The notes beneath the pieces are model-generated. The model was not told the DNA's origin, made no database searches, and saw only the letters and a list, made by a program, of their open reading frames with translations. The position numbers and the translations under genes were made by a program. Shown piece by piece: positions 16,376 to 43,194 of a stretch of DNA of 46,928 nucleotides. How positions within the stretch are numbered: the first letter of the stretch is position 1; each line of letters begins with the position of its first letter. Source of the stretch: a virus. The stretch is taken from the IMG/VR virus record IMGVR_UViG_3300033064_007809, positions 1 to 46,928 of that record. One strand, written 5' to 3'.

Positions 16376-16918
16376 ATGTCCGAAGAGCTACGAGTACCGG
16401 AGGGCTGGCAAATTGCCAACCACGCTGAGCCGGGGGCCGACACCGGCAAACAGTCAAAGAACCTAGAGCTAATTACTCCCGGGCCCCAAGGCCAAGGCGA
16501 GGATGATTATCATTCTCAATATGTCGATCCTGAAGGGCCGTTTGGCGCTGCAAAGGTTGGCGGGGCCGAACAATCCTATGAAACCCAACCACACTCCAAG
16601 GACTATGGCCCCAAAGGCGATCCTTCTTATGACATTGGGCAACTTCACGTAGAGCCGGGGGAGGTCGTTGTAGAGCAAGGTGTTCAACATCGTCGCCAAT
16701 ACTATCTTGTAACAAACCCAGACGAAGAATATTTTTATTCTGTAATCCCTAAGGTTAAAAGTACTGCGGAGGAGTATAGAAGTCCGCATAAACGCACTCG
16801 CTCCGAGGCCCTTGAAGCAGCTTATAAGGTGCTCAACGTTGTACTTCCGGAGTCAATTTCTGATCAAATGCATTACACCTATCCAGAATCGGAGATTATC
16901 AAATCCCCAAGTCGGTAA
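16376..16918 (+). CDS. VPEGW-tagged protein of unknown function (180 aa)
   Basis: Residues 7-11 are V-P-E-G-W, the peptide shared by several proteins of this window. The next 90 residues are rich in Gly, Pro, Glu and Asp and look disordered; the C-terminal 70 residues (YYLVTNPDEEYFYSVIPKV and onward) look folded, with a helix near residues 135-155. No enzymatic motif is seen. It sits alone between the SSB terminator and the phosphoesterase promoter and has its own GTTTAAAGAC element, so it is probably a late gene inserted in an early region. I suggest a virion-packed protein; no function can be given. Confidence 0.6.
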   Translation: MSEELRVPEGWQIANHAEPGADTGKQSKNLELITPGPQGQGEDDYHSQYVDPEGPFGAAKVGGAEQSYETQPHSKDYGPKGDPSYDIGQLHVEPGEVVVEQGVQHRRQYYLVTNPDEEYFYSVIPKVKSTAEEYRSPHKRTRSEALEAAYKVLNVVLPESISDQMHYTYPESEIIKSPSR

Positions 16919-16931
16919 GCAACTTCTACAA

Positions 16932-16960
16932 CTGGCTACGGCTAAAGCCGTAGGAACCAG
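16932..16960. repeat. Palindrome, cyanobacterial REP/MITE-like hairpin
   Basis: CTACGGCT-AA-AGCCGTAG is a perfect 8-base inverted repeat, extended outside by CTGG and CCAG with a three-base bulge. Short palindromes around GGCTAAAGCC occur as dispersed repeats in many cyanobacterial genomes. Only this copy is seen here. It lies between the tagged gene and the phosphoesterase promoter, and may act as a terminator without a T tail. Confidence 0.45.
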
Positions 16961-16964
16961 CTCA

Positions 16965-16973
16965 TGGTAGAAT
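16965..16973 (+). promoter_or_regulatory. Extended -10 promoter TGGTAGAAT
   Basis: TAGAAT preceded by TGG, 24 bases before the GTG start of the phosphoesterase gene. It has the same form as the boxes at 15253, 21381, 28721 and 44990. No clear -35 box. Confidence 0.45.
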
Positions 16974-16996
16974 AAGAATACTTAGCCTTAGCATCT

Positions 16997-17746
16997 GTGC
17001 CCAACAACGTCCTGCTCATCTCAGACATCCATTCTAGAGACGATGCTCTCTACAAACTAATTGAATCTGAGTCGGTCAATGCGGCACTTAACAACGGCGA
17101 ACATTTAGTTTTTTTGGGCGATCTTTCAGACTGTAGAGATAAACTTTACAGGCCTGGGTGTTCTTTCCTTCGCGTCTATGAGCTTGTTAAACAGCTCTGC
17201 GACGAAGGCTATGCCACCCTACTCCACTCTAACCACGCTCAAAATCTCACCGATCACTTTATTGGCCGTAGAAAAGTCAGAAAAGGAATCGTGGGGTTTA
17301 AGCAGACTTTAGAAGAACTCGAGACTTTAGACGAACCTACTCGAGACGAAATGATCTCGTGGTTAGATTCTAGGCCTCTCACATATACCTATAAATCCGA
17401 GAACGGAAAGACATATAAAATAGCTCATGCTTTTTACCAAAAAGACTTTGAGTATAAATACCTAGAGACGGAGACGCTTACCCCCGACGAAATCGATCTT
17501 ACCCTCCGCGGACGAAAGTCCTCATGGATGTGGCAGGGACGCCAAATTACAAAACGCACAGGATTCTGGCGTAATTCTAAGCGTTGGGGGGCCGTCGGTT
17601 CTGATGTTCTTTGTTCGGGTCATTGGGCCCAAATTATTCACCAACCAAACTGCATAGTCAACGATCCGGGTGGCGACGCCACTGACGGCACTCTTGGCAT
17701 TTTTAATTGTAACTCTCACTCCTTCACCATTCACACCGCACCATGA
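16997..17746 (+). CDS. Calcineurin-like metallophosphoesterase
   Basis: A 249-residue protein from a GTG codon. It carries the ordered metal-binding motifs of the calcineurin-like family: D-I-H at residues 9-11, GDLSD near 42, SNHA near 80 (the usual GNH with Ser for Gly), a His in KIAHAF and SGHW near 215. The spacing is that of phage PPP-type phosphatases such as lambda PP and of ApaH-like diadenosine tetraphosphatases. Substrate cannot be told from sequence: phosphoprotein, Ap4A-type nucleotides and RNA ends are options. The stop overlaps the nrdB-like start by 4 bases, so it leads a nucleotide-metabolism operon. Confidence 0.75.
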   Translation: MPNNVLLISDIHSRDDALYKLIESESVNAALNNGEHLVFLGDLSDCRDKLYRPGCSFLRVYELVKQLCDEGYATLLHSNHAQNLTDHFIGRRKVRKGIVGFKQTLEELETLDEPTRDEMISWLDSRPLTYTYKSENGKTYKIAHAFYQKDFEYKYLETETLTPDEIDLTLRGRKSSWMWQGRQITKRTGFWRNSKRWGAVGSDVLCSGHWAQIIHQPNCIVNDPGGDATDGTLGIFNCNSHSFTIHTAP

Positions 17747-18744
17747 GCAGTATTCTTGAGCATAATAAAATGATTTTTAAAACCGACAACGGTTTTGATT
17801 ATCCGCAATTTTACCAGTACTACGAGAACACCGTAGCCTCTGTTTGGCGGCACCAAGAGGTGGCAATGGAGGGAGATCTACGAGATTGGCAGTTTAACTC
17901 AACACCTGACGAAAGGGCCGTTATAGCTGGAATTTTAAAGGGGTTTGTGAGCGCCGAATTGGGAATTGGATGTTACTGGGCAAATGAAGTATGCCGAATT
18001 TTCCCCAAGCCAGAGATTCAAGCAATGGCCAGAGCGTTTTCATTTTTTGAAACAATTCACGCTGCCGCCTACTCCTACCTCAATGATGTCCTAGGTCTTA
18101 ACGAATACGAGGAGTTCATCAACGATCCAATTGCCTGCTCAAAGATTGAGACTTTTTTCCAAAAGTATTCCGATAAGGTCTCTTTGGCAGTGTTCTCTGG
18201 AGCCGGTGAGGGTGTTAGTTTGTTTAGTTCCTTTGCGGTACTGTTGAGCTTCAACAAAGATGGTAGGTATAAGGGCCTAGCACAAATCATCTCCTGGAGT
18301 GCCATCGACGAGGCAACGCACTCCGAGGCAGGATGCGCTTTGTTTAGGTGCCTTGTGGAAGAGACTGGGCTTAGTGACTCTGACCGAGAGGAAATCTATG
18401 ATGGCTTCCGTCTCATTCTTGAGAAGGAGTTTGCCTTCATTGACCATATTTTTAACTCGGCGCATATCGCCTCGGTTGATGCCGAAGAACTGAAAGCATA
18501 TATTACTAATAGGGCTAATGAACGTTTACTTACGCTCGGCCTTGAGCAGATCTTCCACCTTTCCACCGAAGAACTCTCTAAGGCAAAACTATTAGCCGCT
18601 TGGTTTGATCCAATGATCAAAGGTGCGAGTAGCGTAGATGCTTTTGCACAAAGCAAGTCCGGCGATAACTATATCGCCAAACCCACTCAGGATTTTATGA
18701 GCGTTGATTTAACTTGCTTAGATCTTGAGACATGCGTAGCCTAG
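17743..18744 (+). CDS. nrdB: Ribonucleotide reductase class I small subunit (R2)
   Basis: A 333-residue ferritin-like protein. Aligning by spacing with E. coli R2 gives metal ligands E72, E103, H106, E156, E190 and H193 and the radical tyrosine Y110 (motif ETIHAAAY). The first ligand is Glu, where E. coli R2 has Asp84; all other spacings (31, 3, 34, 3) match exactly. It works with the large subunit encoded at 19445 to make dNTPs for phage replication. The start overlaps the phosphoesterase stop. Two small late-type genes are set between this gene and the large subunit, an interruption of the usual pairing. Confidence 0.9.
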   Translation: MSSILEHNKMIFKTDNGFDYPQFYQYYENTVASVWRHQEVAMEGDLRDWQFNSTPDERAVIAGILKGFVSAELGIGCYWANEVCRIFPKPEIQAMARAFSFFETIHAAAYSYLNDVLGLNEYEEFINDPIACSKIETFFQKYSDKVSLAVFSGAGEGVSLFSSFAVLLSFNKDGRYKGLAQIISWSAIDEATHSEAGCALFRCLVEETGLSDSDREEIYDGFRLILEKEFAFIDHIFNSAHIASVDAEELKAYITNRANERLLTLGLEQIFHLSTEELSKAKLLAAWFDPMIKGASSVDAFAQSKSGDNYIAKPTQDFMSVDLTCLDLETCVA

Positions 18745-18754
18745 GTTTAAAGAC
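18745..18754 (+). promoter_or_regulatory. GTTTAAAGAC candidate late promoter
   Basis: An exact decamer copy right after the nrdB stop and 19 bases before the ATG at 18773. It would drive the small gene and the tagged HNH gene separately from the reductase genes. Confidence 0.5.
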
Positions 18755-18772
18755 AATCAACTGAGAAAGATT

Positions 18773-18943
18773 ATGGCAATTCATTCAGTCCCTGATAACA
18801 ATCCGGCCTACATGGCCCAGAGCCATGGCACTACGTGTCTCATCACCGATCCCCGCGCCGACGTATTATTGGCTAGGATTCATAACGAGCGCATAGCTAA
18901 ATTAAAAAAACATAAAACCATTCTTGACGCATGGACGATCTAA
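18773..18943 (+). CDS. Small hypothetical protein (56 aa)
   Basis: An ATG-initiated frame of 56 codons. The preceding GAGAAAG gives a plausible ribosome binding site, and the end overlaps the start of the HNH gene by 13 bases in another frame. The C-terminal part (RIHNERIAKLKKHKTILDAW) is a basic amphipathic helix. No known family. Support comes from the position, the candidate promoter and the coupling to the next gene. Confidence 0.5.
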   Translation: MAIHSVPDNNPAYMAQSHGTTCLITDPRADVLLARIHNERIAKLKKHKTILDAWTI

Positions 18944-19359
18944 ATGTCCCTAATGGCTGGAGGGTGAGAGGTAGGGAGCAAGGAGGAAGAGATTTTTCTG
19001 ATTCTAAGGAAGCTTGGAAGAAGTATAAAGATTCTCCCTACGAGGTGAGTAATAAGGGCAGAGTGAGACGCAAAGAGGCCAACGGCTCATATAACATGCG
19101 TAAGCCTCGTGACGATGACCGCAAACACCTCAGAGTAAATCTGACCTGGAACGGCAAACGTGAAGAGCCACCACTTCACCAGCTCGTTATGGAACTTTTT
19201 GGTCCTCCTAAGCCATCTGGTAAGCACATTGTAATTTTGCACAAAGACAACAATGGTACGAACAACGCCATCTCCAACCTCAAGTGGGGGACAAGGTCCC
19301 AAAACGTGCAACAGGCCCACGATGACGGCTTAATTAAAAAGGGTTCATCCAAAAAATAA
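18931..19359 (+). CDS. VPNGW-tagged NUMOD4/HNH endonuclease-like protein
   Basis: A 142-residue protein. Residues 6-10 are V-P-N-G-W, the tag variant. Then comes a NUMOD4-type DNA-binding segment (YEVSNKGRVRR) and an HNH_3-like nuclease core with LHQLVMELFG, then HKDNNGTNNAISNLKWGT and a C-terminal helix QNVQQAHDDG. These two domains are typical of free-standing homing endonucleases. The first His of the HNH core is present; the second appears as ILHKDNN. Position between nrdB and nrdA fits a homing enzyme. The tag and late-type promoter instead suggest a role in or with the virion; both may hold. Confidence 0.75.
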   Translation: MDDLNVPNGWRVRGREQGGRDFSDSKEAWKKYKDSPYEVSNKGRVRRKEANGSYNMRKPRDDDRKHLRVNLTWNGKREEPPLHQLVMELFGPPKPSGKHIVILHKDNNGTNNAISNLKWGTRSQNVQQAHDDGLIKKGSSKK

Positions 19360-19417
19360 TTTGTAGTTAGTTAGTAACAACTTAACTACTAAGCTACTAA
19401 GCTTTATCTTTTTCATA

Positions 19418-19423
19418 TATAAT
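19418..19423 (+). promoter_or_regulatory. -10 box TATAAT before the reductase large subunit
   Basis: TATAAT in an AT-rich 80-base spacer, 22 bases before the ATG at 19445. The upstream spacer contains repeated ACTACTAAG/GCTACTAAG units and an imperfect inverted repeat. No TG extension and no clear -35. Confidence 0.4.
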
Positions 19424-19444
19424 ATACTACTAAGAAGCCTCACT

Positions 19445-21364
19445 ATGTCCGAAGCCCAAGTCCCCTCCTGGATGTCCCAGGAAGCAATAGATACTTTGTC
19501 GCGAGGATATCTCAGCGCAGGAGAAACACCACGTGGTATGTTTGAGCGTGTTGCCAAAACTGCCGCCAAGTACCTCGCCAAAACGCCGGGCATTGAGCAG
19601 GATATTTTTGAGATATTTTGGAAGGGGTATATTGGTGGGGCCTCTCCTGTACTGAGCAACTTTGGGGCGAATTCTGGTCTCCCGATTAGTTGTTATTCTA
19701 ACCATATCTCAGACTCCGTTCCTTCCATCTACTCCCATTTGAAGGAGTCAGCAGCCCTCTCCCAACATGGCGGAGGAGTGGGAACGTTTTTTGGGGATAT
19801 TAGGCCCGCCGGAGCGCCGATCTCATCGGGCGGAGGCAAGAGCACAGGGGTGGTGCCTTGGATGAGACAATTTGACCAATGCGCCTGTGTGGTTAGTCAG
19901 GGTGGGGTGAGGAGGGGAAGTTTTGCTCTATATCTTCCCATCGACCACCCTGATCTTCTAGAAGTCCTCCGCACCAAGGATCATTCACAGGGCGACCCTA
20001 GAGATTTCATTGATAGCAATATTGCCGTGACTATTACCGATGAGTGGGCGGAGAGTCTGCTTACAGGAGATCTAGAGAAGAAAAGGATCTTTGGCGAGGT
20101 GCTCAAAATGAGACTTGTATCAGGGTCACCATACATCATTTTTATTGACAATGCCAACCGCGCCAATCCGGAATGCTATACACAACGGGGCCTAAGCGTC
20201 AAGCTCTCAAATTTATGCAGCGAAATTTTCCTCCACACCGACGAAAACCACACCTTTGTTTGTGTTCTTTCATCGCTCAACCTTGCCCGTTGGGAGGAGT
20301 GGAAGGACTGGAAGGGGCCAAATACGGGTAAATCTGTGCCGGAACTTGCAATATATCTTCTCGATGCCGTGGTTGAAGAGTTTTGTCATAAGGCCGAGCG
20401 TATCACCTCAATGGGGAGGGCGGTAAGGTTCGCTCGCAAATCCCGTGCCCTTGGCCTAGGTACCATGGGCCTACATGCTCTCTATCAGTCCAAAGGGTTG
20501 CCTTTCGCCTCGCCCGAGGCCCGGCAACTTAACACCGAGACTCACAAATTTATCAAGGAAAAGGCCCTCAAAGCCTCGCGGGACATGGCCGCCACTTACG
20601 GCGAGCCGGAATGGTGCCAAGGCACCGGCCTTCGCCACACTCACCTTATGGCAATTGCACCCACAAAGTCCAACTCAGTGATTTGTGGGGCGGGGAGCGA
20701 AGGAATTGAGCCCATTGACGCAAATTACTACGTTGCCAAACAGGCCAAGGGCACTTTTATTCGCAAAAACAAGTACCTCGTTGAGTATCTCGAGCAGAGC
20801 GGCCATAACACAGACGAGACTTGGGAATCCATCATGGAGTTTAGGGGATCAGTGCAGCATCTCAAGTTCTTAGATGATCGCGCCAAGGAGGTTTTTAAAA
20901 CCGCCCGCGAAATCGATCAGTTTGAACTGATTTACCAGGCCTCAGATCGCCAAAAGTTTGTTTGCCAGGGCCAGTCCCTTAATCTTTTTGTTGATCCTGA
21001 GGCCGCACCTGAGTATCTTTTTAGACTCCACCTAATTGCCTGGAAGATGGGTCTAAAATCGCTCTATTATCTTAAAAGTAGTTCTTTGCTCGTTAAGAAG
21101 CAGCGTCAAGGAGCCACCAAGACGGCCAAAATTGTGACCAAGGAGGCTTGTCCTTATTGCTCCATGGCCAAGTCTTTGCTTAAGAGCCAAGGTTGGGCGG
21201 TTGAAGAGATAGATCGTTCGAAGTTTCCGAATTCCGAATGGGTGTGGAAAACCGTGCCTCAGATCTGGCTCAATGGCCAACACATAGGTGGCTATGCAAA
21301 TCTTGCAAAAAAACTTGGCAAGGGAGAAAAATCTTACGGTGAGTGTGCGGCTTGCGAGGGTTGA
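19445..21364 (+). CDS. nrdA: Ribonucleotide reductase class I large subunit with inserted glutaredoxin domain
   Basis: A 639-residue protein. The reductase core (about 1-555) lacks the N-terminal ATP cone and has the active-site set: C83 and C273 as the redox pair, N256-x-C258-x-E260 at the radical site, and Y541-Y542 for radical transfer. Residues 561-625 are a complete glutaredoxin: CPYC at 569-572, TVPQIWLNG, then GGYANL. The protein ends GECAACEG, which looks like the C-terminal swinging-arm cysteines (C634, C637) of class I enzymes. So the glutaredoxin is placed between core and tail, and could reduce the tail in the same chain. It pairs with the R2 gene at 17743. Confidence 0.9.
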   Translation: MSEAQVPSWMSQEAIDTLSRGYLSAGETPRGMFERVAKTAAKYLAKTPGIEQDIFEIFWKGYIGGASPVLSNFGANSGLPISCYSNHISDSVPSIYSHLKESAALSQHGGGVGTFFGDIRPAGAPISSGGGKSTGVVPWMRQFDQCACVVSQGGVRRGSFALYLPIDHPDLLEVLRTKDHSQGDPRDFIDSNIAVTITDEWAESLLTGDLEKKRIFGEVLKMRLVSGSPYIIFIDNANRANPECYTQRGLSVKLSNLCSEIFLHTDENHTFVCVLSSLNLARWEEWKDWKGPNTGKSVPELAIYLLDAVVEEFCHKAERITSMGRAVRFARKSRALGLGTMGLHALYQSKGLPFASPEARQLNTETHKFIKEKALKASRDMAATYGEPEWCQGTGLRHTHLMAIAPTKSNSVICGAGSEGIEPIDANYYVAKQAKGTFIRKNKYLVEYLEQSGHNTDETWESIMEFRGSVQHLKFLDDRAKEVFKTAREIDQFELIYQASDRQKFVCQGQSLNLFVDPEAAPEYLFRLHLIAWKMGLKSLYYLKSSSLLVKKQRQGATKTAKIVTKEACPYCSMAKSLLKSQGWAVEEIDRSKFPNSEWVWKTVPQIWLNGQHIGGYANLAKKLGKGEKSYGECAACEG

Positions 21365-21380
21365 TCTTCTTCCCATCTCA

Positions 21381-21389
21381 TGATATAAT
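21381..21389 (+). promoter_or_regulatory. Extended -10 promoter TGATATAAT
   Basis: Perfect TATAAT with a TG extension, 27 bases before the ATG of the pyrophosphohydrolase gene. Belongs to the set of host-type promoters before nucleotide and replication genes. Confidence 0.5.
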
Positions 21390-21415
21390 ATTCCTATCTA
21401 CTAGTACCCAATTAC

Positions 21416-21898
21416 ATGGCAGCTACAGAATTTGATTACGTAAAGTTCATCGATGAGGGGTTTGAGTCCCAACAAAAATATGCCAAAAAGGTTGGTGAGG
21501 CAGGGCCATTGGACCCCGATCTCGACCTTAAAACCAGATATGCCAAAGTCATTGAGCATTTTGGACATATGATGGAGGAAGCAATTGAAGCCCGCGTATA
21601 TGTCCCGCGGCGAAGCTGGAAAAATGGCGAACGGAGTTACTTAGACAATGATGAAATGCGCCAGGAGTTTATTGCTGAACTTTATGACGTTCTGCTTTTT
21701 CACCGGGCCATTTTGGCCTATGCGGGCATAACTGGCGAAGAGTTTGCAAAAATTGCTGCTAAAAAACAGGCCTATAATCAAGTTAGGCCGGATCATAATG
21801 TCAATGGCAATGCGCCAGTCGTCGATTCTCCGGCCGCTGAGCTTCAAGGCCTTTGCCCCTCCGCCGTTCTTCTATCTGATTTTGCCCTCGGGCGATAA
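21416..21898 (+). CDS. All-alpha NTP pyrophosphohydrolase (dUTPase/MazG-like)
   Basis: A 160-residue helical protein. It shows the metal-binding pattern of the dimeric dUTPase/MazG superfamily: EEAIEARVYVPRRSWK (E-E-x-x-E), then E...ELYDVLLF (E-x-x-D) and a C-terminal K-x-x-x-N-x-x-R-x-x-H. These enzymes cleave (d)NTPs to (d)NMP and pyrophosphate; the PRRSWK segment is typical of the dUTPase side of the family. Here it could keep dUTP low and, by supplying dUMP or dCMP, feed the synthase at 28757. The C-terminal 30 residues after the His are unmatched. Confidence 0.7.
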   Translation: MAATEFDYVKFIDEGFESQQKYAKKVGEAGPLDPDLDLKTRYAKVIEHFGHMMEEAIEARVYVPRRSWKNGERSYLDNDEMRQEFIAELYDVLLFHRAILAYAGITGEEFAKIAAKKQAYNQVRPDHNVNGNAPVVDSPAAELQGLCPSAVLLSDFALGR

Positions 21899-21900
21899 TT

Positions 21901-22083
21901 ATGGTCCTTCCACGCCAGCGCCTCTTCCAAGACCTACCCGACGACTCCTGTAGAAATTGCGCTGGGCGCGGTTTCCTACTCTTTGAGAGAGCGGATCTGG
22001 ATAATAAAATAATGCCCAATGAAGTAATTGAATGCGGAGTATGTAATGGTACAGGCAAACGTAAAACAGATAAATGCGAATAG
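21901..22083 (+). CDS. Small DnaJ-type zinc-finger protein (60 aa)
   Basis: Two CxxCxGxG motifs, CRNCAGRG and CGVCNGTG, about 25 residues apart, the paired zinc-ribbon pattern of DnaJ central domains. With only 60 residues and no J domain it can bind one zinc. The start is 2 bases after the previous stop; the end overlaps the HNH gene. Role unknown; such stand-alone fingers may help fold or deliver partner proteins. Confidence 0.6.
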   Translation: MVLPRQRLFQDLPDDSCRNCAGRGFLLFERADLDNKIMPNEVIECGVCNGTGKRKTDKCE

Positions 22084-22531
22084 CCAGGTTCTGGTGCTTA
22101 ATGCGTCATACGAACCTCTCAACATTGTGTCGTGGAAGCGTGCCATCATCCTTTTGCTCAAAGAAAAAGCGGCATTCATCTCCGCTAAAGTCATCCGCCT
22201 TGTAGAGTATATTAAGGTGCCTTTCTCTAAAATCAATGCAATGAGACCTTCTCGAAATATGATTTATAAGCGAGACGGGCATAAATGCCAGTATTGTGGC
22301 TCGACAAGAAAACTAACAATTGACCACGTAGTACCAAGGAGTAAGGGAGGCGAGGATTCCTGGTCCAATATGGTTGTAGCATGTTCTTCTTGCAATACAC
22401 GCAAAGGAAACACACTTCTCGAGCAATCGGGGATGAAGTTGGCGCGAAAACCCACCGCCCCCCTCAATAAGTTCGTATTTGCTCTTTGGGACTCTAATAA
22501 TCCTGAGTGGCAAAAATATAATTTTATTTAA
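22046..22531 (+). CDS. HNH endonuclease, cyanobacterial type
   Basis: I choose the ATG at 22046, with GGAG about 9 bases before it; a TTG 18 bases upstream is in frame. The protein (161 residues) matches a well-known HNH family: LVLNASYEPLNIVSWKRA, then IKVPF and PSRNMIYKRDGHKCQYCG, then LTIDHVVPRSKGG and WSNMVVACSSCN. The two CxxC pairs bind structural zinc and D-H / N / H form the nuclease site. Members occur in many cyanobacteria and their phages, as possible homing or packaging nickases. It overlaps the zinc-finger gene by 38 bases. Confidence 0.85.
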   Translation: MVQANVKQINANSQVLVLNASYEPLNIVSWKRAIILLLKEKAAFISAKVIRLVEYIKVPFSKINAMRPSRNMIYKRDGHKCQYCGSTRKLTIDHVVPRSKGGEDSWSNMVVACSSCNTRKGNTLLEQSGMKLARKPTAPLNKFVFALWDSNNPEWQKYNFI

Positions 22532-23104: not shown

Positions 23105-23105
23105 G

Positions 23106-25015: not shown

Positions 25016-25876
25016 ATGATTATGGCAGAGGTGTTTAATCCCGTTCTTATGGTCCCAGATGGGTGGGGTTTTGCTCCCGAGGTCGCCTGGTTGGATTTTG
25101 CCGAGTCGGAGTCGTTTGCCGCGGAACTCGTTCCAGCCACCGTCAAGGCCACGGCTCAAGTAGGCACCACATATCGCAACCCGACCACAGGCGTTACGCT
25201 TCAAAAGCAACCATCGGGGCGGTGGAAAAAGACCGGCTCAGAAGTAAAAAATTCTCCCCCCAGAGATCCTAAAGCCCCGCCAACTCACTACCCCGAACGC
25301 ACGTCTGACTCCATAACCATTGGCTTCGGCCGCTTCAACCCTCCTACCATTGGCCACCAAAAACTTATTGAGCACATTGCCAAAGTGGCCAAGGAAGGCA
25401 ATTCCGACTACAATATTTTTGGCTCCCACTCCCAAGACCCTAAGGAAAACCCACTCGGCTCAGGTACAAAAACATCTTACATGAAAGAGATGTTCCCAGA
25501 CCACGCCGATAACGTCATCTATGACCAAAACGTTAAAAGTGTCCTCGATGCGCTTGAGGGGGCACATAAACGTGGTTACAAAGTGGCCAATGTTGTGGTA
25601 GGATCTGATAGAATGGAAGAGTTTAAAAAGATTGCAAACAAATACAATGGTGAGGGAAAAAAATATAACTTCCAAGCAATCAACCTTATCTCCGCGGGCG
25701 ATCGCGATGAGAGCGCCGGCGACGAGGTTAGCGCAATGTCCGCCTCGAAGTTACGTAAGGCTGCCACAGACGGAGATTTTAGCACCTTCGCAAGGGGAAT
25801 TCCCAATACGCTCTCTGCAAGGCGCAAAAAAGAACTGTATGATGAACTACGGGTCTCAATGGAGTTTAAAGACTAG
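25016..25876 (+). CDS. VPDGW-tagged nucleotidyltransferase (NMNAT/cytidylyltransferase-like)
   Basis: AGGAG sits 8 bases before the ATG at 25016. Residues 13-17 are V-P-D-G-W, the tag variant. A linker region (residues 50-95) has a small module TTYRNPTTGV followed by SGRWKK. The nucleotidyltransferase domain fills residues 98-286: GFGRFNPPTIGH (T/HxGH site, 111-114) and MSASKLRKA, the counterpart of the ISSTxxR loop. Phages of many groups carry this domain; its substrate is usually given as NMN or CTP-linked, but is not settled. The 95-residue N-terminal extension is not needed for catalysis, and fits a sorting region. Confidence 0.75.
   Translation: MIMAEVFNPVLMVPDGWGFAPEVAWLDFAESESFAAELVPATVKATAQVGTTYRNPTTGVTLQKQPSGRWKKTGSEVKNSPPRDPKAPPTHYPERTSDSITIGFGRFNPPTIGHQKLIEHIAKVAKEGNSDYNIFGSHSQDPKENPLGSGTKTSYMKEMFPDHADNVIYDQNVKSVLDALEGAHKRGYKVANVVVGSDRMEEFKKIANKYNGEGKKYNFQAINLISAGDRDESAGDEVSAMSASKLRKAATDGDFSTFARGIPNTLSARRKKELYDELRVSMEFKD
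25864..25873 (+). promoter_or_regulatory. GTTTAAAGAC candidate late promoter
   Basis: An exact copy overlapping the last codons (Phe-Lys-Asp) of the nucleotidyltransferase gene, 24 bases before the ATG at 25898. Confidence 0.45.
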
Positions 25877-25897
25877 TGTGATTAGGCGTTGGTACGC

Positions 25898-28447
25898 ATG
25901 ATAGACAAAGTTTTTAAGCCCGAGGATTGGGGCGTTGCTGATAAAAATGAGTGGGTGGCGGATAAGTTGTTGTTCGGTGAGGCCACAATGCCTGCTCTTG
26001 AAGGGCGGGATGTTGTAGGTTTTGTGGAGAGCATAGATTTTGCCGTTGAATTAGCTCCTGGCAAACCCGATGGCGTTCAGCAGTGGACAGATAAGGGTGG
26101 CAGACCCGTTAAATTCAATCCGTCCACAAAGTCCTGGTACCATATCGACCAATCTGCAAAGAAGGATCTTCAAAAGAAATTAGATACTCAGGGGCAACAG
26201 GATAGAAGACCCGAGCCTAAAAGCAAAGAAAAACCTCGCCCCACACCTTCATCCGAACAAGAGGAAAGACCAGTGCCTTCTCCAGTGCCGGCGGAGGCAC
26301 CATCAGTTCCTCCTCAGGGGGGAGATGAATCGAAACCCTCTTCACTCCCAGGCGAGAGACCTATTGGTCAAAATTTCTCCTTAGAATTAACAGAGACAAA
26401 TCAGCAGTTTTTAGATAAAATAAAATCCGAAGGTAAATGGAATGGCACGAACTTTATCGATCTAAGGCAAGTTATAGGAGATCAAACATCAATTCCGCCA
26501 AGGCACCTAGACGCTCTGTCTAGAATGCTAGTTACTTCGGGCTCCGATAAAATAGGTTGGTCGTATTTTGGTGGAGATGTGCCAGGTGGTGCTGGAAAAA
26601 TCTTTGCACAGGGCGGAGAGCTTATGACCCTGGCGTTTACTGCACTGCAGGAGCAGCAGTCTAAGAAACTCCAGTCCGTTATATCAGAGGTGCTGAAAGC
26701 GCAAAAAGAAAGAAAAGTGAAAGGCCAGATAATTACACCCGACTGGTTTCAAGCAGCACAGGACAACAAAACTGCTATACTTAACTCAATCAAGTCGAAT
26801 AAGGGAGGTGATGTATCTATTGTAGGAGGAGCCTGGGATACTAAAAACGAAGTTGAAGAGCTGGGAATGAAAGACTATGACACCGAAAAGGGATTTTCTA
26901 CGGACATTTATCTAAGACTCTCTGACGGATCCCTTCACCAGCCCTCTCTTAAAAAAGACACAAGAGTAAACTTCTTAAATTCTGGTGCTGGCCAATACGG
27001 TCAATTTATCGTGACGGCGCATGCAGAAAACCCAGATTCCCCGCACCAAGAGCAGGCTAAGTCTTATCTTGAAGCTCAAAAGATAAGGCTATCTATAATG
27101 AATGAGCTGGGAGTAGTAGCCCCACGTAAAAAAGATGGACCAGAAATAAATGACAAATGGAAAAAAGCTATCTCCGTAATTGAAAACACAGAAAAGGAAT
27201 CGTGGGCACAGCCCGATCAGTCTTATGACCAAAAGGTATACGCTAATAATCAAGATAAAAGGTTAAGAAGCGTTCTCTCTAAAAACATAGATACAATAAA
27301 ACAATTTGATTTATCCTCTATACCTACGGATAAAAATGCCATTTTCTCCTCTCTTCTTAAAAGAGAGGAAATAGACCCTGAAGATCTAAAAATAAAAGGT
27401 GCAGATTTTAAAAAACTAAGCTCAGTTGATAAACAGAGAGTAACTGAATCTAGAGAAAAAGCTAAGCAATTAGAATCAGAAGCGTTAGAAACCGCTACTG
27501 ACAACTCGGAATTGATTAAAAAGGCACAAAAAGAGATGCAAAATGCTGGAACAGACTGGGCCGGATTAGTAGACAAAATTGCCTCTGCTAAAAGCCTAAG
27601 TCGTTCTACAAGAAAACTAATCCACCTTGCGGCAATTAATCAAAACGTTGAAGGATATAAAGATGAGGTTCAACAAGCTCACAAAAACTTTATCTCTAGT
27701 GCAGTAGAAGGCATAAACACCAACCCGTCTCTACGGGACGGAATGCTTAGAGAGCTCAAAAATAACTTCCCTATCAGAGACGTTGCTGAAGGGAAAGAAG
27801 TGATGGCCATTGGAGATCTTTCCTTTGATACTCAGACCTGCAGAGATATTTTTGGTACAACTGACTTTGAACAGATTAAAACTGGATTTAAAGTAGCCAC
27901 TGATGAAAGTGGAACTCCCTACCTCGGTTGGGTTGGCAAAGCTGGCAGCGGTCCTCTACTCCCCCTAGCAAAAATTAACGTTAGAGAGGACGGGGTGGGA
28001 TATGGGTCTTCAATAAAGCACGAGATGGTACTTCATCCGGATTTTGCTAGTAGACTTCGCCAAGCAAATGCTAAGGAGTACGGAACTGGTAGCGGAAGAA
28101 CCTTCTCAGAATTAGAGTTTGAAGAAATGAACAAAAAACCATCTTTTGAGGACTATATGGAAATCCTAAGGGCCAAACGGGCCGCTTCCGCCTCTAACAA
28201 CGAGGCCATGGGCACCAATTACGCCGATGGCACAGTATTCTACAAAGGCAAAGCGCTCGGCCGTTGCCCAGCAGGTACAACCCGCTCCGGCAAAACCTGT
28301 GTACCAGGGGCAGGAACAACGCCCATGGCCCCAGGATACAAAACTCCAGACCTAGGTGGACTATCACGGGCCCAAGTCCAAGCCCTATCCAAAGCTCGCT
28401 CCACCGAAGATATTATTAAAGCACACAAAAAATCTAACAAACAATGA
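25898..28447 (+). CDS. Large tag-variant protein of unknown function (849 aa)
   Basis: Start at ATG 25898; a TTG three codons upstream is in frame. Residues 7-11 read K-P-E-D-W, a divergent version of the VPEGW tag. Residues about 50-85 contain a module PGKPDGVQQWTDKGGRPV that recurs in the ADP-ribosyltransferase at 41385. After a Pro-rich linker (residues 100-160) comes a large folded region. Near residues 350-375, TDIYLRLSDGSLHQPSLKK resembles the D...(S/E)xK core of PD-(D/E)XK-like nucleases, but this is weak. A C-terminal C-x-A-G-T-T-R-S-G-K-x-C segment may bind metal. Probably a late, virion-associated protein. Confidence 0.55.
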   Translation: MIDKVFKPEDWGVADKNEWVADKLLFGEATMPALEGRDVVGFVESIDFAVELAPGKPDGVQQWTDKGGRPVKFNPSTKSWYHIDQSAKKDLQKKLDTQGQQDRRPEPKSKEKPRPTPSSEQEERPVPSPVPAEAPSVPPQGGDESKPSSLPGERPIGQNFSLELTETNQQFLDKIKSEGKWNGTNFIDLRQVIGDQTSIPPRHLDALSRMLVTSGSDKIGWSYFGGDVPGGAGKIFAQGGELMTLAFTALQEQQSKKLQSVISEVLKAQKERKVKGQIITPDWFQAAQDNKTAILNSIKSNKGGDVSIVGGAWDTKNEVEELGMKDYDTEKGFSTDIYLRLSDGSLHQPSLKKDTRVNFLNSGAGQYGQFIVTAHAENPDSPHQEQAKSYLEAQKIRLSIMNELGVVAPRKKDGPEINDKWKKAISVIENTEKESWAQPDQSYDQKVYANNQDKRLRSVLSKNIDTIKQFDLSSIPTDKNAIFSSLLKREEIDPEDLKIKGADFKKLSSVDKQRVTESREKAKQLESEALETATDNSELIKKAQKEMQNAGTDWAGLVDKIASAKSLSRSTRKLIHLAAINQNVEGYKDEVQQAHKNFISSAVEGINTNPSLRDGMLRELKNNFPIRDVAEGKEVMAIGDLSFDTQTCRDIFGTTDFEQIKTGFKVATDESGTPYLGWVGKAGSGPLLPLAKINVREDGVGYGSSIKHEMVLHPDFASRLRQANAKEYGTGSGRTFSELEFEEMNKKPSFEDYMEILRAKRAASASNNEAMGTNYADGTVFYKGKALGRCPAGTTRSGKTCVPGAGTTPMAPGYKTPDLGGLSRAQVQALSKARSTEDIIKAHKKSNKQ

Positions 28448-35917: not shown

Positions 35918-35925
35918 TATAACCC

Positions 35926-38900: not shown

Positions 38901-39063
38901 ATCCGCCTCATCTGTCTCTGCAAATTTTAACATTACTTTCAACGTCAATGGGAACATGGGTGCTGGGAACGTTGAAGAACTGCGTGGCCCTGTATTGGCA
39001 ATTATCAAGCAGGCTTGGGAAGAAGCAAGCACTGGCATAGCCTCACGAGGCTCTGTCGTTTAG
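35926..39063 (+). CDS. Tail tape measure protein (1045 aa)
   Basis: A long helical protein with coiled-coil regions at residues 1-120 and 320-450 and several hydrophobic, Gly/Ala-rich segments (about residues 480-530 and 720-790). Near the C-terminus is the phrase GTSYIVGERGPEIFTPGASG, a common signature of tape measure proteins. It sets tail length and is ejected with DNA. At about 1.5 angstrom per residue, the length would suit a tail of roughly 150 nm, an estimate only. Gene order adaptor - tape measure - gp25-like is consistent. Confidence 0.85.
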   Translation: MATSSVILDIRANTNRALNDFKRFSAQLDNKFLISGLKLDVVRSALGQINREFQKAIGEQGLTAGQSLRAAQNQASLLLQTFKGFGDEASTSITESFSSTFNQIAVTAGGTFDDVKKSLAATPWISADLPKEIREKLGEGILKFQTDARRAGLGDDFGNIAKKFLAGEINAGNLLESGNALESSLGRKLQETGGSPSTIPNALQRTRVFFDAISDPEYVKQVEKAAKGAAGFRIILEDLNSTLFNPEAGIFGAVRKVTMAVGDTTTILDETQKLIESIFGKQGTFVLFFEQIKKIFGLEDPLKTVISGIRWLTNQFNRLNTFLQSPQVQQIVGILRTAFTNVQTFATNLSEAITTNLQDPESKISQAGKKIEEFFKNLKENIDKELKNNDSILSLIKKIGTSIGEFFKAIEATIKAGDWDPSKISQSIRGIGKSIRDFISKIGEEIRSIDVDKQGNFFLDIFTTIVGEVAETLGTAIKEAILVVFSGKGLAVVGGAMKVLYEGLSKFFAGLFGGNGPLGAIFGGAAMAGLGILLARRIRGAFDSVLRPIQALRTGGGGVGGFVNRLFGGGGRGAGDIGGGMGFQGQVITRMDAIIRILAGGGATDLDYGGPSSPIDGGPRRRRPRGGGPDLDAPTRGFRGTAGKRARIGRFGSGIAEFGRNMFTDATNSNFDDAGYPIDDDDMDFYEEKRKRIEQRYSRRFGKRARIGRAFKGMGRGMRGFGKGALIAGGVAALGAGALGMFGGPGTKASASTQFDPETGEPIQTPEQQSKQNQMAGVGNVLGGGLEGALTGAAIGSIIPGIGTATGAVIGAVIGGVVPLLDEGTRKGVKDFTDGIGKSLRGAGDNIGKAFQSAGDGISKAASSGIQWIKDGFGSISKWFGDIDWKTVLINALVPGGSMTIEGLKGIAEFASKLNIFDGIKSGIDAISSTASSILSGDWLPKALGGKREAGGPVIKGTSYIVGERGPEIFTPGASGSVSTNRDLTAMRSGGGSASSVSANFNITFNVNGNMGAGNVEELRGPVLAIIKQAWEEASTGIASRGSVV

Positions 39064-39073
39064 GTACCACACT

Positions 39074-39601
39074 ATGACACAAGACTTTCCCCAAATCACA
39101 TCGCGAATTGACTCAGAGCAACTTGCATCAATAAAGAACCAATTTGCTCTCCGTGACCGCATTAACGCCGATCGTTATGAGCTGACTCAGGTCGAACGCC
39201 GCAACCCAACAACATTTTTTGACCTATCCTCTACTCCAGGTACACTCACCCAAACCACCCTCCGGGGCCTGAAATACCCGCTCGAGTTAGACGGAAAAGG
39301 TGGCCTAAAACTCTCATCAAACTACGACCGGATCGGCGAACAAATCCTAGAACTACTTGAAACGAGAATAGGTGAAAGGGTATATAGGCCTTTCTTAGGC
39401 ACCCCAGAGCTCCTTTTTGAAAGTATAGATGAGTATGCCCTGGCGCAAACACTTCGCTCTCAACTCAGAGCCTTTCTCCCCACCGTTACAGAACTAGAGG
39501 CCAGGGTTACATTACGCGAGGACGGAAGCGCGAACATTATAGTATTTTATTCGGTAGAAGGTTCTGAAACCGCAATGGTAAAATATTCTTATTCTTTATA
39601 A
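39074..39601 (+). CDS. Baseplate wedge protein gp25/W-like
   Basis: A 175-residue protein with the gp25-like domain: GLKYPLELDGKGGLKLSSNY, then QILELLETRIGERVYRPFLGTP, followed by the C-terminal strand-turn. In T4 gp25 and P2 W it forms the core of each baseplate wedge where the sheath begins. The 70-residue N-terminal extension is unusual for the family. It starts 10 bases after the tape measure gene. Confidence 0.85.
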   Translation: MTQDFPQITSRIDSEQLASIKNQFALRDRINADRYELTQVERRNPTTFFDLSSTPGTLTQTTLRGLKYPLELDGKGGLKLSSNYDRIGEQILELLETRIGERVYRPFLGTPELLFESIDEYALAQTLRSQLRAFLPTVTELEARVTLREDGSANIIVFYSVEGSETAMVKYSYSL

Positions 39602-39613
39602 ATAAAATTTATT

Positions 39614-40045
39614 ATGCCCCGTAGCAAAATTCACAAAAACTTTGCAGATTTTGGCGCTGATGCACAGCAAATGATCATCAACCAAATCCAATCCATAGAC
39701 CTTGAGAAGATTGGGCCAAAGTCCATTGCTCACGTGGGAAAAACTCTGATCTCCTTGGTTAAGTCTTCAAACCAACTACAAGAAGAGGTAGAGGCGGAGG
39801 AAGTGCGGGACAACTGGATTATGATTAGGGAACTGTCGCATATAGTCCTTGTGGAGATACTTGATAAGTTTAAAGAATTAAGTACACTTGGGCAAGTGCC
39901 TGAATGGGAAAGAGCAAATGTTCTTAGTTTGCTTCAAGAAATAGCAAAAGTTTGCCACGCGGAGGAGAAACGCGATGCCCTTGCGGAAATTAACTCAGGG
40001 CGTATCATAGAAGACAGAATACTCGATGAGATGTTAGGAATTTAA
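39614..40045 (+). CDS. Hypothetical helical protein (143 aa)
   Basis: Entirely helical by appearance, with heptad-like segments and many Glu/Lys. No motif recognised. It follows gp25 by 12 bases and may belong to the tail block; a tail chaperone or small structural role is possible, without proof. Confidence 0.5.
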   Translation: MPRSKIHKNFADFGADAQQMIINQIQSIDLEKIGPKSIAHVGKTLISLVKSSNQLQEEVEAEEVRDNWIMIRELSHIVLVEILDKFKELSTLGQVPEWERANVLSLLQEIAKVCHAEEKRDALAEINSGRIIEDRILDEMLGI

Positions 40046-40047
40046 TT

Positions 40048-40233
40048 ATGATGAATATTGATCAGGCACGGGCAGGGGGCGAAGGTATCCTCGGAGTTAA
40101 GAAAAAGGCAAATGGTAAGGATAAAAATGTCGAGTTAGATGAGCAGGCCCCCGTCTTCGAGACACAAGAACAGCCCCTCCGGCTGAAAGTTCCCGAGGGT
40201 TGGAAATCCGCTAAGCAACCGCACCCCCGGTAG
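40048..40233 (+). CDS. Small protein with C-terminal VPEGW tag (61 aa)
   Basis: Two start codons in tandem (40048 and 40051). Residues 42-52 are PLRLKVPEGW, followed by KSAKQPHPR at the end. The octapeptide K-V-P-E-G-W-K-S is identical to that at the N-terminus of the ADP-ribosyltransferase 1.2 kb downstream. The remaining 40 residues are charged and disordered. Could be a scaffold or a free form of the tag. Confidence 0.5.
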   Translation: MMNIDQARAGGEGILGVKKKANGKDKNVELDEQAPVFETQEQPLRLKVPEGWKSAKQPHPR

Positions 40234-40240
40234 TTGTATT

Positions 40241-40438
40241 GTGCCACGTGAATGGAATACTCCCATCAGGAGCCCGTGGAACACTCCCATCCACAACCTA
40301 CTCAAGGCAATAGATAACCACACACAACTCTATCTCCGAACAGGGGATAAATGGCACCTCGAGCAATCAGAGGTGTTACGTAAATACATCTCAGAACTAA
40401 AAACCTGGATCCATAAACTAGAAAAAGAAGAACTATGA
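40241..40438 (+). CDS. Small hypothetical protein (65 aa)
   Basis: GTG start 7 bases after the previous stop. The second half (DNHTQLYLRTGDKWHLEQSEVLRKYISEL and onward) is an amphipathic helix pair. Its stop overlaps the next small gene by 4 bases. No family recognised. Confidence 0.45.
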   Translation: MPREWNTPIRSPWNTPIHNLLKAIDNHTQLYLRTGDKWHLEQSEVLRKYISELKTWIHKLEKEEL

Positions 40439-40530
40439 CCGATCCTGCATGGGGCGTTAATATATTCCTTGCCCTAGGAACGCTTGGAGTTGCCTTAATA
40501 ATTTATTACACACTCACATTAGACCCCTAA
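40435..40530 (+). CDS. 31-residue single-span membrane peptide
   Basis: ATG overlaps the previous TGA (ATGA). It encodes a single hydrophobic helix (IFLALGTLGVALIIYYTLT) with short polar ends. Size and shape resemble small photosystem subunits and phage lysis or superinfection peptides, but no family matches with confidence. Confidence 0.4.
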   Translation: MTDPAWGVNIFLALGTLGVALIIYYTLTLDP

Positions 40531-40535
40531 AGAAA

Positions 40536-40877
40536 ATGTATCAGTACAAAATTAAAAAGATTAACAGGGTCATCGATGGGGATACGGTGGATGTAGTGAT
40601 TGACGTAGGATTTTACATCTCTCTGACCCAGAGAGTCCGCCTCAAAGACATCGACGCTGCCGAAACAAGAACAAAAGACCTCGTAGAGAAGGCCGAGGGC
40701 CTAATGGCAAAAGAATGGCTGGAGAGGGAACTTGCCAAAGAGGGCGAGTGGATTATTGAAACAACAAAAGAAGATAAGTACGGAAGAATACTTGGAACCC
40801 TATACTTAGTTGGCGAACCAGTCACCGTAAATGAGAGAATGTTAAACGAAGGAATAGCAAGACCTTACATGGGGTAG
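40536..40877 (+). CDS. Staphylococcal-nuclease-like endonuclease
   Basis: A 113-residue compact TNase fold: IDGDTVDV (metal-binding Asp), RVRLKDIDAAE (Arg and Asp/Glu of the active site), and KYGRILGTLYL with the second catalytic Arg. No signal peptide, so it acts in the cell or virion. It would cut DNA or RNA without strong sequence preference. It may serve host DNA breakdown. Confidence 0.8.
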   Translation: MYQYKIKKINRVIDGDTVDVVIDVGFYISLTQRVRLKDIDAAETRTKDLVEKAEGLMAKEWLERELAKEGEWIIETTKEDKYGRILGTLYLVGEPVTVNERMLNEGIARPYMG

Positions 40878-40883
40878 ACAAAA

Positions 40884-40893
40884 GATTAAAGAC
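40884..40893 (+). promoter_or_regulatory. GATTAAAGAC candidate late promoter
   Basis: One change from the exact decamer, 22 bases before the ATG of the VPTGW-tagged gene at 40916. Confidence 0.4.
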
Positions 40894-40915
40894 TAATTAG
40901 TCAAAGCAATATACA

Positions 40916-41401
40916 ATGCCACTCCGCGAAGGTTCATCCGACAAAGTCATCCAGGACAACATCCGTTGCCTTCTGGACAAGGACGGGTGCGGTTACGATC
41001 CCCCGTACAAAGATCCTGCTCGTAAGGAGTACACACCTGCCCAGGCTGCGGCCATTGCCTATTCCAAAGCCGGCAAACGTAAGAATAAGGCAGAGACCCT
41101 TAAGGGCGAGAAACAAACCCAATCGAAACAAAAACCTTCCGAAGAAGAAAAATCTGACAACGCCGAGCATCAAGAGGGCCAAATGGCCAGAGACAAGGCC
41201 ATCAAGGGCGCTACTACCGAGGCTGGTGGGGACTCCGACCCGTGCTGGGACACCCACGAAATGGTGGGGATGAAGAAAGGCAAGGGTGGCAAGCCTGTTC
41301 CTAATTGTGTTCCAAAATCTTCCGATAATGCCGAAGAATCTTATTCTGAAATCTCAGTACCTACTGGTTGGTCAGTAAGCTCCAGTGTCTACAGAGATTA
41401 A
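40916..41401 (+). CDS. Small virion-type protein with C-terminal VPTGW tag (161 aa)
   Basis: The N-terminus (MPLREGSSDKVIQDNIRCLL, then QAAAIAYSKAGK) is a segment known from structural-region proteins of many myophages. A second segment, DPCWDTHEMVGMKKGKGG followed by KPVPNCVPK, is another common phage tail or prohead piece. The linker between is Lys/Glu-rich. Residues 148-152 are V-P-T-G-W, then nine residues to the end. The stop overlaps the next gene, whose own VPEGW tag starts only 31 bases after this one ends. No enzyme function expected. Confidence 0.55.
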   Translation: MPLREGSSDKVIQDNIRCLLDKDGCGYDPPYKDPARKEYTPAQAAAIAYSKAGKRKNKAETLKGEKQTQSKQKPSEEEKSDNAEHQEGQMARDKAIKGATTEAGGDSDPCWDTHEMVGMKKGKGGKPVPNCVPKSSDNAEESYSEISVPTGWSVSSSVYRD

Positions 41402-42767
41402 AGTTCCAGAAGGTTGGAAATCGCAAAACTTCGGAGTAAAGCTTAAGCCCGGTAAGCCTCCTGGGGTTACTCAGTGGCAAGATGTTGATGGCAGACCGGT
41501 GATAAAATCGGGTCGCGTATGGGCGCTGCAAAAAACAAAAGGTGAGTCTCAAGTAAAGAATCAAAAGCCCAAAGTTGAGCAAATAAAAGATCAAAAGCCC
41601 CAAAAACCCCAAAAACCAAAGGCACAGACCCCACCCCAAGAGCGTACTCTGAGTCCCCAGCAACGTCAGGAGGTCACCTCCTCCAAGGAGGTTACATTGT
41701 CGCGTATCGACAGGCAACTAAATAGCAGACAGTTTTATGACCCAGAGACAAATGCCAAGATAAGAGCCCAAAGCGAAGCGCGACTAAAACCTTTCATGGA
41801 CCTAGATGATGACGAAAAGGCCTCGTTGCATTTGTACGGGACCGATACCATAGCCCCTGGTAGCACTAGTGCAAAGTACTACGCTATTACCAATAAGATG
41901 CTTAGGGGGACAGATATTAAAAACGTCTCTCCAGAGCATCTAGAGATGGCCAAATTTATCTCTCAGAAGCTGAGTTCTGCGCTTAAAAAACTCCCTGCAG
42001 AAGTAAAAGATCTCGACAGAGCCGTGTCTGGAAACGTAGTCGCCAGTCTTGCAAATCTAAAACCCGGAGACGTATTCGAGGATAAAGGATTTGGCTCCTA
42101 TACTGACCAAGGAACCCCTACACTAAATACGTTTATGTCGGAAAACGGACCTAATGCAGTGATAACTATGAGATCAAAAACTGCTAGAAGGGTCGCTGCT
42201 GTCATGGAATATGAGGGGGAAGGGGAGCATATATCCCTACCAGGAACCAAATATAAATTAGTAGAAATGAAGGAAAAAGGCGTGTATAGTCGCAAAGCAG
42301 GCGGCTACGTACCCCAATACATATTTGAAGAAGTACCCAGCGAAGAGGACAAGTCACCATCCCCAACCACCGAGTCCTATAAGCCTCGGGTTGCCAAGCC
42401 TTCGGCGCCTCCACAAACTCCGGAGATCACGGAAAGTGACGGAAACGCCATAAAAGCGTTTATCAGTCCGTCAAAAAAAGCGGGAGGATTAAGTCACGAG
42501 GAGATAAACAAAGTTTTACGGGGCTCTCAACCCCCCACCCCCGCCGCGGAAAAAGCGGTGCAGGAATTGGATCACGCTATCTCCAAACTCCCCAGCAATA
42601 AAAGCGGCGATACTTACTACAGGGCAATCACCTCATCTAGAACCGGAGGTGATGCAAAAACTGAGATCTTTGCAACCTGGCGATACTTTCTCCGATTCTG
42701 GTGTTGGCACCTACTCCAAGGATATTACGGATTCGCAAAATGCCATGGCCGGCCGCGTGCGCTCTAA
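41385..42767 (+). CDS. VPEGW-tagged ADP-ribosyltransferase (first domain intact, second domain frameshifted)
   Basis: GTG start inside the previous gene. Residues 7-11 are V-P-E-G-W, then PGKPPGVTQWQDVDGRPV, the module shared with the 849-residue protein. Residues 145-320 fit the R-S-E class of ADP-ribosyltransferases: YYAITNKMLRG, R212, LKPGDVFEDKGFGSYTD (STS-like) and EGEGEHISLP with the E-x-E region (E279/E281). From residue 350 a second domain of the same type begins, but after residue 425 the frame is wrong and ends in unrelated sequence. T4 Alt, an injected ADP-ribosyltransferase that modifies host RNA polymerase, is the model. Confidence 0.65.
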   Translation: MSTEIKVPEGWKSQNFGVKLKPGKPPGVTQWQDVDGRPVIKSGRVWALQKTKGESQVKNQKPKVEQIKDQKPQKPQKPKAQTPPQERTLSPQQRQEVTSSKEVTLSRIDRQLNSRQFYDPETNAKIRAQSEARLKPFMDLDDDEKASLHLYGTDTIAPGSTSAKYYAITNKMLRGTDIKNVSPEHLEMAKFISQKLSSALKKLPAEVKDLDRAVSGNVVASLANLKPGDVFEDKGFGSYTDQGTPTLNTFMSENGPNAVITMRSKTARRVAAVMEYEGEGEHISLPGTKYKLVEMKEKGVYSRKAGGYVPQYIFEEVPSEEDKSPSPTTESYKPRVAKPSAPPQTPEITESDGNAIKAFISPSKKAGGLSHEEINKVLRGSQPPTPAAEKAVQELDHAISKLPSNKSGDTYYRAITSSRTGGDAKTEIFATWRYFLRFWCWHLLQGYYGFAKCHGRPRAL

Positions 42768-42945
42768 CGATGCGCGCTGGAACGGTGCTATTATGGTGGT
42801 ATCGCGCTCCAAAAATCTTAAGAATATCAAGCAGTTCTTAAATCCGGACTGGGATGAGGATCACGCTGTGCTTCCACGCGATACTCAGTTAAAAGTTAAA
42901 TCTATTAACACTAAGGGTAAAACAACTACTATTGAAGTAGAATAG
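42649..42945 (+). pseudogene. Out-of-frame remainder of the second ADP-ribosyltransferase domain
   Basis: In the next frame the sequence LRSLQPGDTFSDSGVGTYS continues the second domain and ends with DEDHAVLPRDTQLKVK, the partner of EGEHISLPGTKYKLV in domain one. Removing one A from the run at 42656-42660 joins the two frames exactly (D-A-K then L-R-S). A GTG start at 42649 could give a stand-alone piece, but a broken gene, programmed frameshift or read error fits better. Confidence 0.65.
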
Positions 42946-42975
42946 ATAGACCCCCCTCTTGTACTACTACTTACT

Positions 42976-43194
42976 ATGGACACAAAAAATTCCGGCCTTG
43001 CCAACAGAATGAACGATTTCTCCTTCTCTCAAGCAGAGAACTCCGGTGGCGCGGGGTTTAAATCTCCCGAAGGCTGGAAGGCACAGCGTAAGGCCGCACG
43101 AGAAGGACAACAGGACAAATCTGCCATGCTCGATGCAGAGATGAATCCCTCAGACGAGGCAAATATGGCCGAGGATGCCAAATCTACGGGTTGA
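42976..43194 (+). CDS. Small protein with internal SPEGW tag (72 aa)
   Basis: A Ser/Glu/Ala-rich, probably disordered protein. Residues 29-36 are K-S-P-E-G-W-K-A, a close variant of K-V-P-E-G-W-K-S. No other motif. Its stop overlaps a TTG of the next frame, but the next gene more likely begins at 43245. Confidence 0.5.
   Translation: MDTKNSGLANRMNDFSFSQAENSGGAGFKSPEGWKAQRKAAREGQQDKSAMLDAEMNPSDEANMAEDAKSTG

Follow-up and report, generated by a model that had tools for sequence, protein, structure and literature searches.

Why should eight proteins encoded on one phage fragment, among them an ADP-ribosyltransferase (ART), an HNH endonuclease and a nucleotidyltransferase, carry the same pentapeptide? 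The stretch considered here (IMG/VR virus record IMGVR_UViG_3300033064_007809; 46,928 nt, the whole of which we call the window) is part of the genome of a cyanomyovirus akin to Cyanophage S-TIM5 (Aurunvirus). The initial annotation of its sequence had noted V-P-x-G-W, or a near form, in eight otherwise unrelated proteins encoded between positions 16376 and 43194, and had proposed a virion-sorting tag or a protease site. All eight motifs are present where they had been reported. We favor, with moderate confidence, the reading that PxGW is a prohead or virion sorting tag for delivered effectors, which would resemble the capsid targeting sequence (CTS) of phage T4 in action and not in sequence.

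The observation is real and lies far above chance. In the window alone, the strict form [VIL]P[EDN]GW occurs six times, five of them terminal (≤15 residues from a protein end), against expectations of 0.036 and 0.003 and maxima of 2 and 1 in 2000 within-protein shuffles; this test is unaffected by the kinship of genomes. Relatives were then gathered with the primase and the 15329 protein as queries, long stretches or whole contigs being taken (14 genomes or fragments, 1374 called proteins, 402,714 residues). Searched against shuffled sequence, this set again showed strong terminal enrichment, with 70 strict motifs, of which 52 are terminal by this definition, where 0.78 and 0.1 were expected (200 shuffles); these counts are not independent events, because the genomes are related. 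The other 119 orders of the same residue classes occurred 0.78 times on average and 11 times at most in the same set, and a degenerate pattern of the motif at the DNA level was found 67 times in 15 records, its reversed control three times. Because genes were called with a simple purpose-written caller based on codon usage, start sites may be off by some residues. Metagenomic relatives were compared at 44 loci or in their genomes (L- and G-numbered below). Across all loci we collected 99 distinct terminal tags, about one third of them C-terminal; N-terminal tags mostly start after 5-9 residues, and C-terminal ones mostly leave 4, 5, 9 or 10 residues to the end. Two kinds of occurrence were set aside as background: a ninth VPEGW at 45391, which lies inside a MoxR-type ATPase and recurs at that internal site in relatives, and the PxGW of tail fiber collar and portal proteins, which is internal and at homologous positions. 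No comparable set of terminal tags was found in the more distant relative S-CBWM1, searches of 50,697 phage records with the leaders described below gave matches in Aurunviruses only, and the string VPEGW was not found in the literature searched.

Among the carriers in the window, all encoded on the + strand and referred to below by their start coordinates, N-terminal tags are found in a 180-aa low-complexity protein (16376..16918; VPEGW at 16394-16408, residues 7-11), in a NUMOD4/HNH endonuclease between nrdB and nrdA (18931..19359, PF13392 and PF07463; VPNGW at 18946-18960, residue 6 of 142, with VPDGW at residue 7 of the S-TIM5 counterpart gp089), in a nucleotidyltransferase (25016..25876, PHROG_395; VPDGW at 25052-25066, residue 13 of 286), in an 849-aa protein with no assigned fold (25898..28447, a TTG start at 25889 being also possible; near form KPEDW at 25916-25930, residue 7) and in the ART (41385..42767; VPEGW at 41403-41417, residue 7 of 460). 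The AlphaFold2 model of the 849-aa protein had a mean pLDDT of 44 and was left out of the fold search. C-terminal tags are carried by a 61-aa protein (40048..40233; VPEGW at 40189-40203, residue 48 of 61, 9 residues from the end) and a disordered-looking 161-aa protein (40916..41401; VPTGW at 41357-41371, residue 148 of 161). The near form SPEGW (43063-43077) of a 72-aa protein (42976..43194) had also been placed in or near the C-terminal part; it actually lies in mid-protein, at residue 30 of 72, and a relative of this protein has VPDGW at residue 5. The identity of KVPEGWKS in 40048 and 41385 was confirmed. The tag was present on homing HNH proteins of the 18931 type in most genomes examined, which is unusual for a free-standing homing endonuclease. 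In the 42976 family, as well as in S-TIM5 gp065, G004 121363 and G013 42299, a stretch [ET]VGPKITKxxHLxGxQDxS lies 5-10 residues downstream of the tag, and it occurs behind N-terminal tags and behind tags near the C-terminus.

The conservation of the tag argues that it is the peptide that is maintained. The pattern with which the 99 tags were selected fixes Pro and Trp; residue 1 is V in 58, I in 17, A in 9, K in 8, L in 4 and T in 3, residue 3 is E in 57, D in 30 and another residue in 12, and residue 4 is G in 85 and D in 14. Family alignments, which do not presuppose the tag pattern, gave the same picture: no exception to P, G or W occurs among the 25 distinct members of the 16376 family or the 16 of the 40048 family, while the flanks vary and the mean column consensus is only 57-59%. 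Between S-TIM5 and the metagenomic relatives, a given gene family keeps its tag at the same end, and about nine families show such terminal conservation. Moreover, the tags of one genome are written with different codons in all but one genome. With near-fixed P, G and W, a variable third residue and differing codons, the tags show selection on a peptide whose core is PxGW, and not on an E|G cleavage site; a DNA-level element, such as a homing or recombination site, is excluded by the differing tag codons within genomes. Gly codons within tags (16403-16405 is one) have C or T in third position in 88% of cases, compared with 53% genome-wide.

For three of the carriers, 25016, 25898 and 41385, the description "otherwise unrelated" did not hold, as their similarity extends beyond the tag to a homologous leader of ~60 residues. 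Three interchangeable mini-domains were found in the leaders of carriers: type 1 (LxPGKPxGxTxWxDxxGRPVxxxxxxW), seen in 25898 (26048..26137, ELAPGKPDGVQQWTDKGGRPVKFNPSTKSW) and in 41385 (41439..41522, KLKPGKPPGVTQWQDVDGRPVIKSGRVW); type 2 (GTxYxxxTTGxTLQKQxSGRWKK), seen in 25016 (25124..25231, GTTYRNPTTGVTLQKQPSGRWKK); and type 3, with a C-P-x-G...C pattern. The type 2 module of 25016 is homologous to the leader of S-TIM5 gp079, which has an HNH payload (residues 14-75 of 25016, 42% identity, E 8e-20 in a two-sequence comparison). Residues 1-60 of ART, kinase, HNH, nucleotidyltransferase and unassigned-payload carriers form one BLAST-connected group, and the same carriers fall into separate BLAST groups from residue 111 on. 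At the 41385 locus, the leaders of L117 (an ART) and L116 (a protein kinase; PF00069, E 1.7e-5, under the curated cut-off) are 66% identical. ART payloads (PF01129/PF03496) were found in L117, L115 and L062. At the 25898 locus, relatives have HNH nucleases of several kinds behind the same or related leaders (L123, L127 and S-TIM5 gp079, phrog_5718), those of L124 and L130 being weak matches or assigned by eye only. The payload of 25898 itself is 77% identical to that of L135, where it follows a Cys-containing type 3 module and not type 1; payload shared and mini-domains different, leader pieces and payloads thus exchange independently. As judged from these comparisons, the tag in several proteins opens a homologous leader that is joined through a predicted disordered linker to interchangeable payloads. 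Two of the HNH payloads (L127:5001-6689 and L130:4986-7154) match PHROG_3561 (934 aa, function unassigned), and the same nuclease may therefore be present, after a different N-terminal part, in large proteins from other phages.

That an ART is among the carriers, as the initial annotation had it, was borne out by a structure match for 41385 and by the Pfam matches of its relatives. The AlphaFold2 model of 41385 has a disordered tag region (residues 1-20), a small hairpin, which is the type 1 mini-domain predicted as a short beta hairpin, a disordered linker and a well-formed ART domain, for which the best Foldseek match in the PDB was 6dre_B, among ADP-ribosyltransferases (E 4.8e-10). R212, S-Y-T and E279-x-E281 in the alignment correspond, by eye, to a signature of the Arg...Ser-x-Thr...Glu-x-Glu type. 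A frameshift interrupts a second, C-terminal ART-like domain of 41385, the rest of which lies in the open reading frame 42649-42945; this is either a sequencing error or decay, and the relatives L115 and L117 have a single ART domain. Most carriers are single-domain. Among the larger ones, L062:7578-10331 has a C-terminal ART (PF03496, 6e-12) and a central stretch that looks kinase-like by eye and has no Pfam match, and G001, G011 and G012 encode proteins of 851-918 aa with internal tags and an ART at the end.

A hint that carriers may reach the particle comes from S-TIM5, which has six terminal tags in corresponding genes: N-terminal VPEGW in gp094, VPDGW in the HNH protein gp089, APEDW in gp079 and LPEGW in gp065, and C-terminal VPDGW in gp067 and IPEGW in gp066. 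Three of these (gp067, gp079 and gp094) bear the annotation "virion structural protein and packaging". Both gp094 (60 aa, the orthologue of 16376) and gp067 (50 aa, the counterpart of 40048, with its tag 4 residues from the C-terminus) are small, and of the 67 S-TIM5 coding sequences of ≤80 aa (hand count) just four bear the virion label, including both tagged ones (6/2211 = 0.0027). Given their size, and since neither has a PHROG match, the label can hardly come from homology, and it probably rests on detection in particles by mass spectrometry.

A further pointer is the N-terminal module MPLREGSS...QAAAIAYSKAGK of 40916 (40916..41074, + strand; PHROG_2423, E 1.5e-10), a family that has its tag at the C-terminus. 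Elsewhere this module is N-terminal on head maturation proteases. In an Obolenskvirus, PHROG_2229 (head maturation protease, E 1.6e-141) and PHROG_2423 (E 2.9e-15) occur in one protein, and many Obolenskvirus records with this N-terminal module are annotated as head maturation protease. Cyanophage KBS-S-2A encodes the module as a separate 50-aa protein, whose gene is flanked by those for head morphogenesis and the major head protein, and a virion-protein gene (by annotation) of Pseudomonas phage KPP22 contains a match. The same module opens the large ART proteins of G001, G011 and G012. It is separate from the PxGW tag, and no tag was seen in the other phages listed, where none was sought. These contexts favor the head over the tail as the place of loading.

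Taken as a sorting signal, PxGW (usually VPEGW or VPDGW) would be a short linear motif of the Aurunvirus (S-TIM5-like) lineage, set in flexible sequence, for the most part 5-9 residues in from the N-terminus or 4-10 from the C-terminus. One partner would recognize it during particle assembly, most likely inside the prohead, where a scaffold/protease fusion, the shell or the portal are candidates; small proteins and enzymes would be packaged together and leave with the DNA at infection, and the delivered payloads may act on the host. A more specific version, to which we give somewhat less than even credence, is a plug-in effector delivery system of Aurunviruses, in which PxGW at either end would be captured by a dedicated head adaptor for injection, and ART, kinase, nuclease and nucleotidyltransferase would replace one another, at fixed loci and behind a single leader, as host defenses change. 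Several points weigh against sorting into the virion. The virion status of the carriers comes from annotation; gp065, gp066 and gp089 have no such annotation, and over all S-TIM5 coding sequences, 3 of 6 tagged versus ~44 of 206 with a virion label is not significant alone. The near forms KPEDW and APEDW lack the Gly, and some carriers, such as 18931, resemble ordinary homing endonucleases, which are unexpected in particles.

The same observations bear on where, and whether, loading would occur. The tag might load proteins into the tail tube or onto the baseplate or tape measure, as in contractile injection systems with N-terminally signaled cargo. Four tagged genes lie close behind the tape measure and gp25-like genes, and the closest relative of the 41385 ART in named phages, S-PM2 p209, adjoins baseplate hub genes; however, gene order by itself carries little weight, the PHROG_2423 module of the 40916 proteins speaks for the prohead, and multi-domain carriers of 850-918 aa fit a head more easily, so that we regard loading into the tail as unlikely. 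Slightly less probable still, in our view, is that the tag docks its carriers, inside the infected cell, to a hub protein of phage or host origin, which would gather them where replication, transcription or assembly takes place, with no packaging involved. Short terminal hub-binding motifs are common, some carriers lack a virion annotation, and a homing-type HNH protein and a nucleotidyltransferase are among them. Against this stand the 50- and 60-aa carriers annotated as virion proteins, the clustering of carriers with late genes, and a payload repertoire which is that of injected effectors (PMC5512222).

Two further explanations are far less probable. In the protease-site half of the original proposal, a T4 gp21-type prohead protease would cleave the tag between its Glu and Gly. 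Glu is indeed the third residue in 57 of the 99 tags, and cleavage so near a terminus would trim a short propeptide from whichever end is tagged, as in T4 Alt (PMC9026906). However, the third residue is Asp in 30 tags and another residue in 12, merely 13 fit the gp21 motif L/I-x-E, and the Trp is fixed although it lies outside that motif. The S-TIM5 head maturation protease gp151 is of the Mu gpI family (PF10123 Mu-like_Pro, PHROG_976; no gp21 family listed), and the expected substrates in this phage, the major head protein, portal and scaffold/protease proteins, bear no tag. This half was therefore not supported, and we consider it very improbable; the sorting half was supported indirectly, by terminal conservation, leader-payload exchange, the S-TIM5 virion annotations, the ART payload and PHROG_2423. 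Least credible is common descent only, with the leader an old recombining segment spread by gene conversion and having no present role. The leaders of 25016, 25898 and 41385 are homologous; yet families that are otherwise dissimilar carry the bare tag at one terminus or the other, and its P, G and W are fixed amid variable flanks with codons that differ each time, a pattern by which this explanation is strongly disfavored.

Virion sorting by PxGW would have parallels in known systems. The first 10 residues of T4 IPIII suffice for packaging (PMC9026906), and T4 Alt is packaged and injected (PMC5512222). Like the T4 CTS of IPI, IPII, IPIII and Alt, PxGW is a short terminal peptide on differing small proteins and an ART; entry of cargo into the prohead for injection is established for the CTS and proposed for PxGW. 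No sequence similarity between the two was seen. PxGW has a core with a fixed Trp, may stand at either terminus, and belongs to a lineage with a Mu gpI-type protease/scaffold fusion, and processing is not expected; because of this protease and the absence of an L/I-x-E cut site, PxGW is not a member of the CTS family. The polyvalent proteins of phages and conjugative elements (Iyer et al., 2017; PMC5512222) share with the carriers ART, kinase and nuclease payloads, a neighborhood of virion genes (the tagged genes sit downstream of the tape measure and gp25-like genes) and predicted injection, and the large carriers of G001, G011 and G012 likewise seem to join more than one domain. They differ in that a short tag and leader unite many small, mostly single-domain carriers here, and the available text of that paper mentions no such tag. 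A further analogy is with polymorphic toxins and type VI secretion effectors, in which marker or trafficking domains serve as a conserved N-terminal delivery leader ahead of exchanged C-terminal activities; the resemblance would lie in the leader with exchanged payloads, and the vehicle would be a phage particle, not a secretion system.

Sorting signals of injected proteins are already known; what would be new here is a virion sorting signal with a PxGW core, usable at either terminus, together with leader-payload exchange. Because few phages outside the T4 group have a recognized packaging signal, delivered effectors cannot be listed from their sequences. If the sorting reading is correct, a tag legible in the genome would turn uncharacterized genes of marine and freshwater cyanophages into defined candidates for effectors of the first minutes of infection, and it could lead to its receptor through simple binding tests and serve as a handle for cargo loading outside T4. 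Payload exchange behind a common leader would likewise reveal how effectors of this kind evolve.

The assignment of the window to an S-TIM5 relative rests on its primase (58% identity over 98% of the length), on a distant match of its tape measure protein and on gene order, which parallels S-TIM5 116-158 kb from the baseplate genes to the MoxR ATPase (baseplate, tail fiber, nrdB, HNH, nrdA, DNA methyltransferase, thymidylate synthase, primase, tape measure, gp25-like, MoxR ATPase); the head genes of the phage fall outside the window. Two Cys motifs, YYKGKxLGRCPAGTTxxGKxCxP and DPCWxxYEMIGMKxKNGKxVPNCVPK, recur on carriers (the C-terminus of 25898-28447, S-TIM5 gp078, G004 107022 and 40916) and are possibly further sorting or folding modules. 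The ribonucleotide reductase large subunit encoded at 19445-21364 has just 639 aa and, by eye, a glutaredoxin-like domain at its C-terminus.

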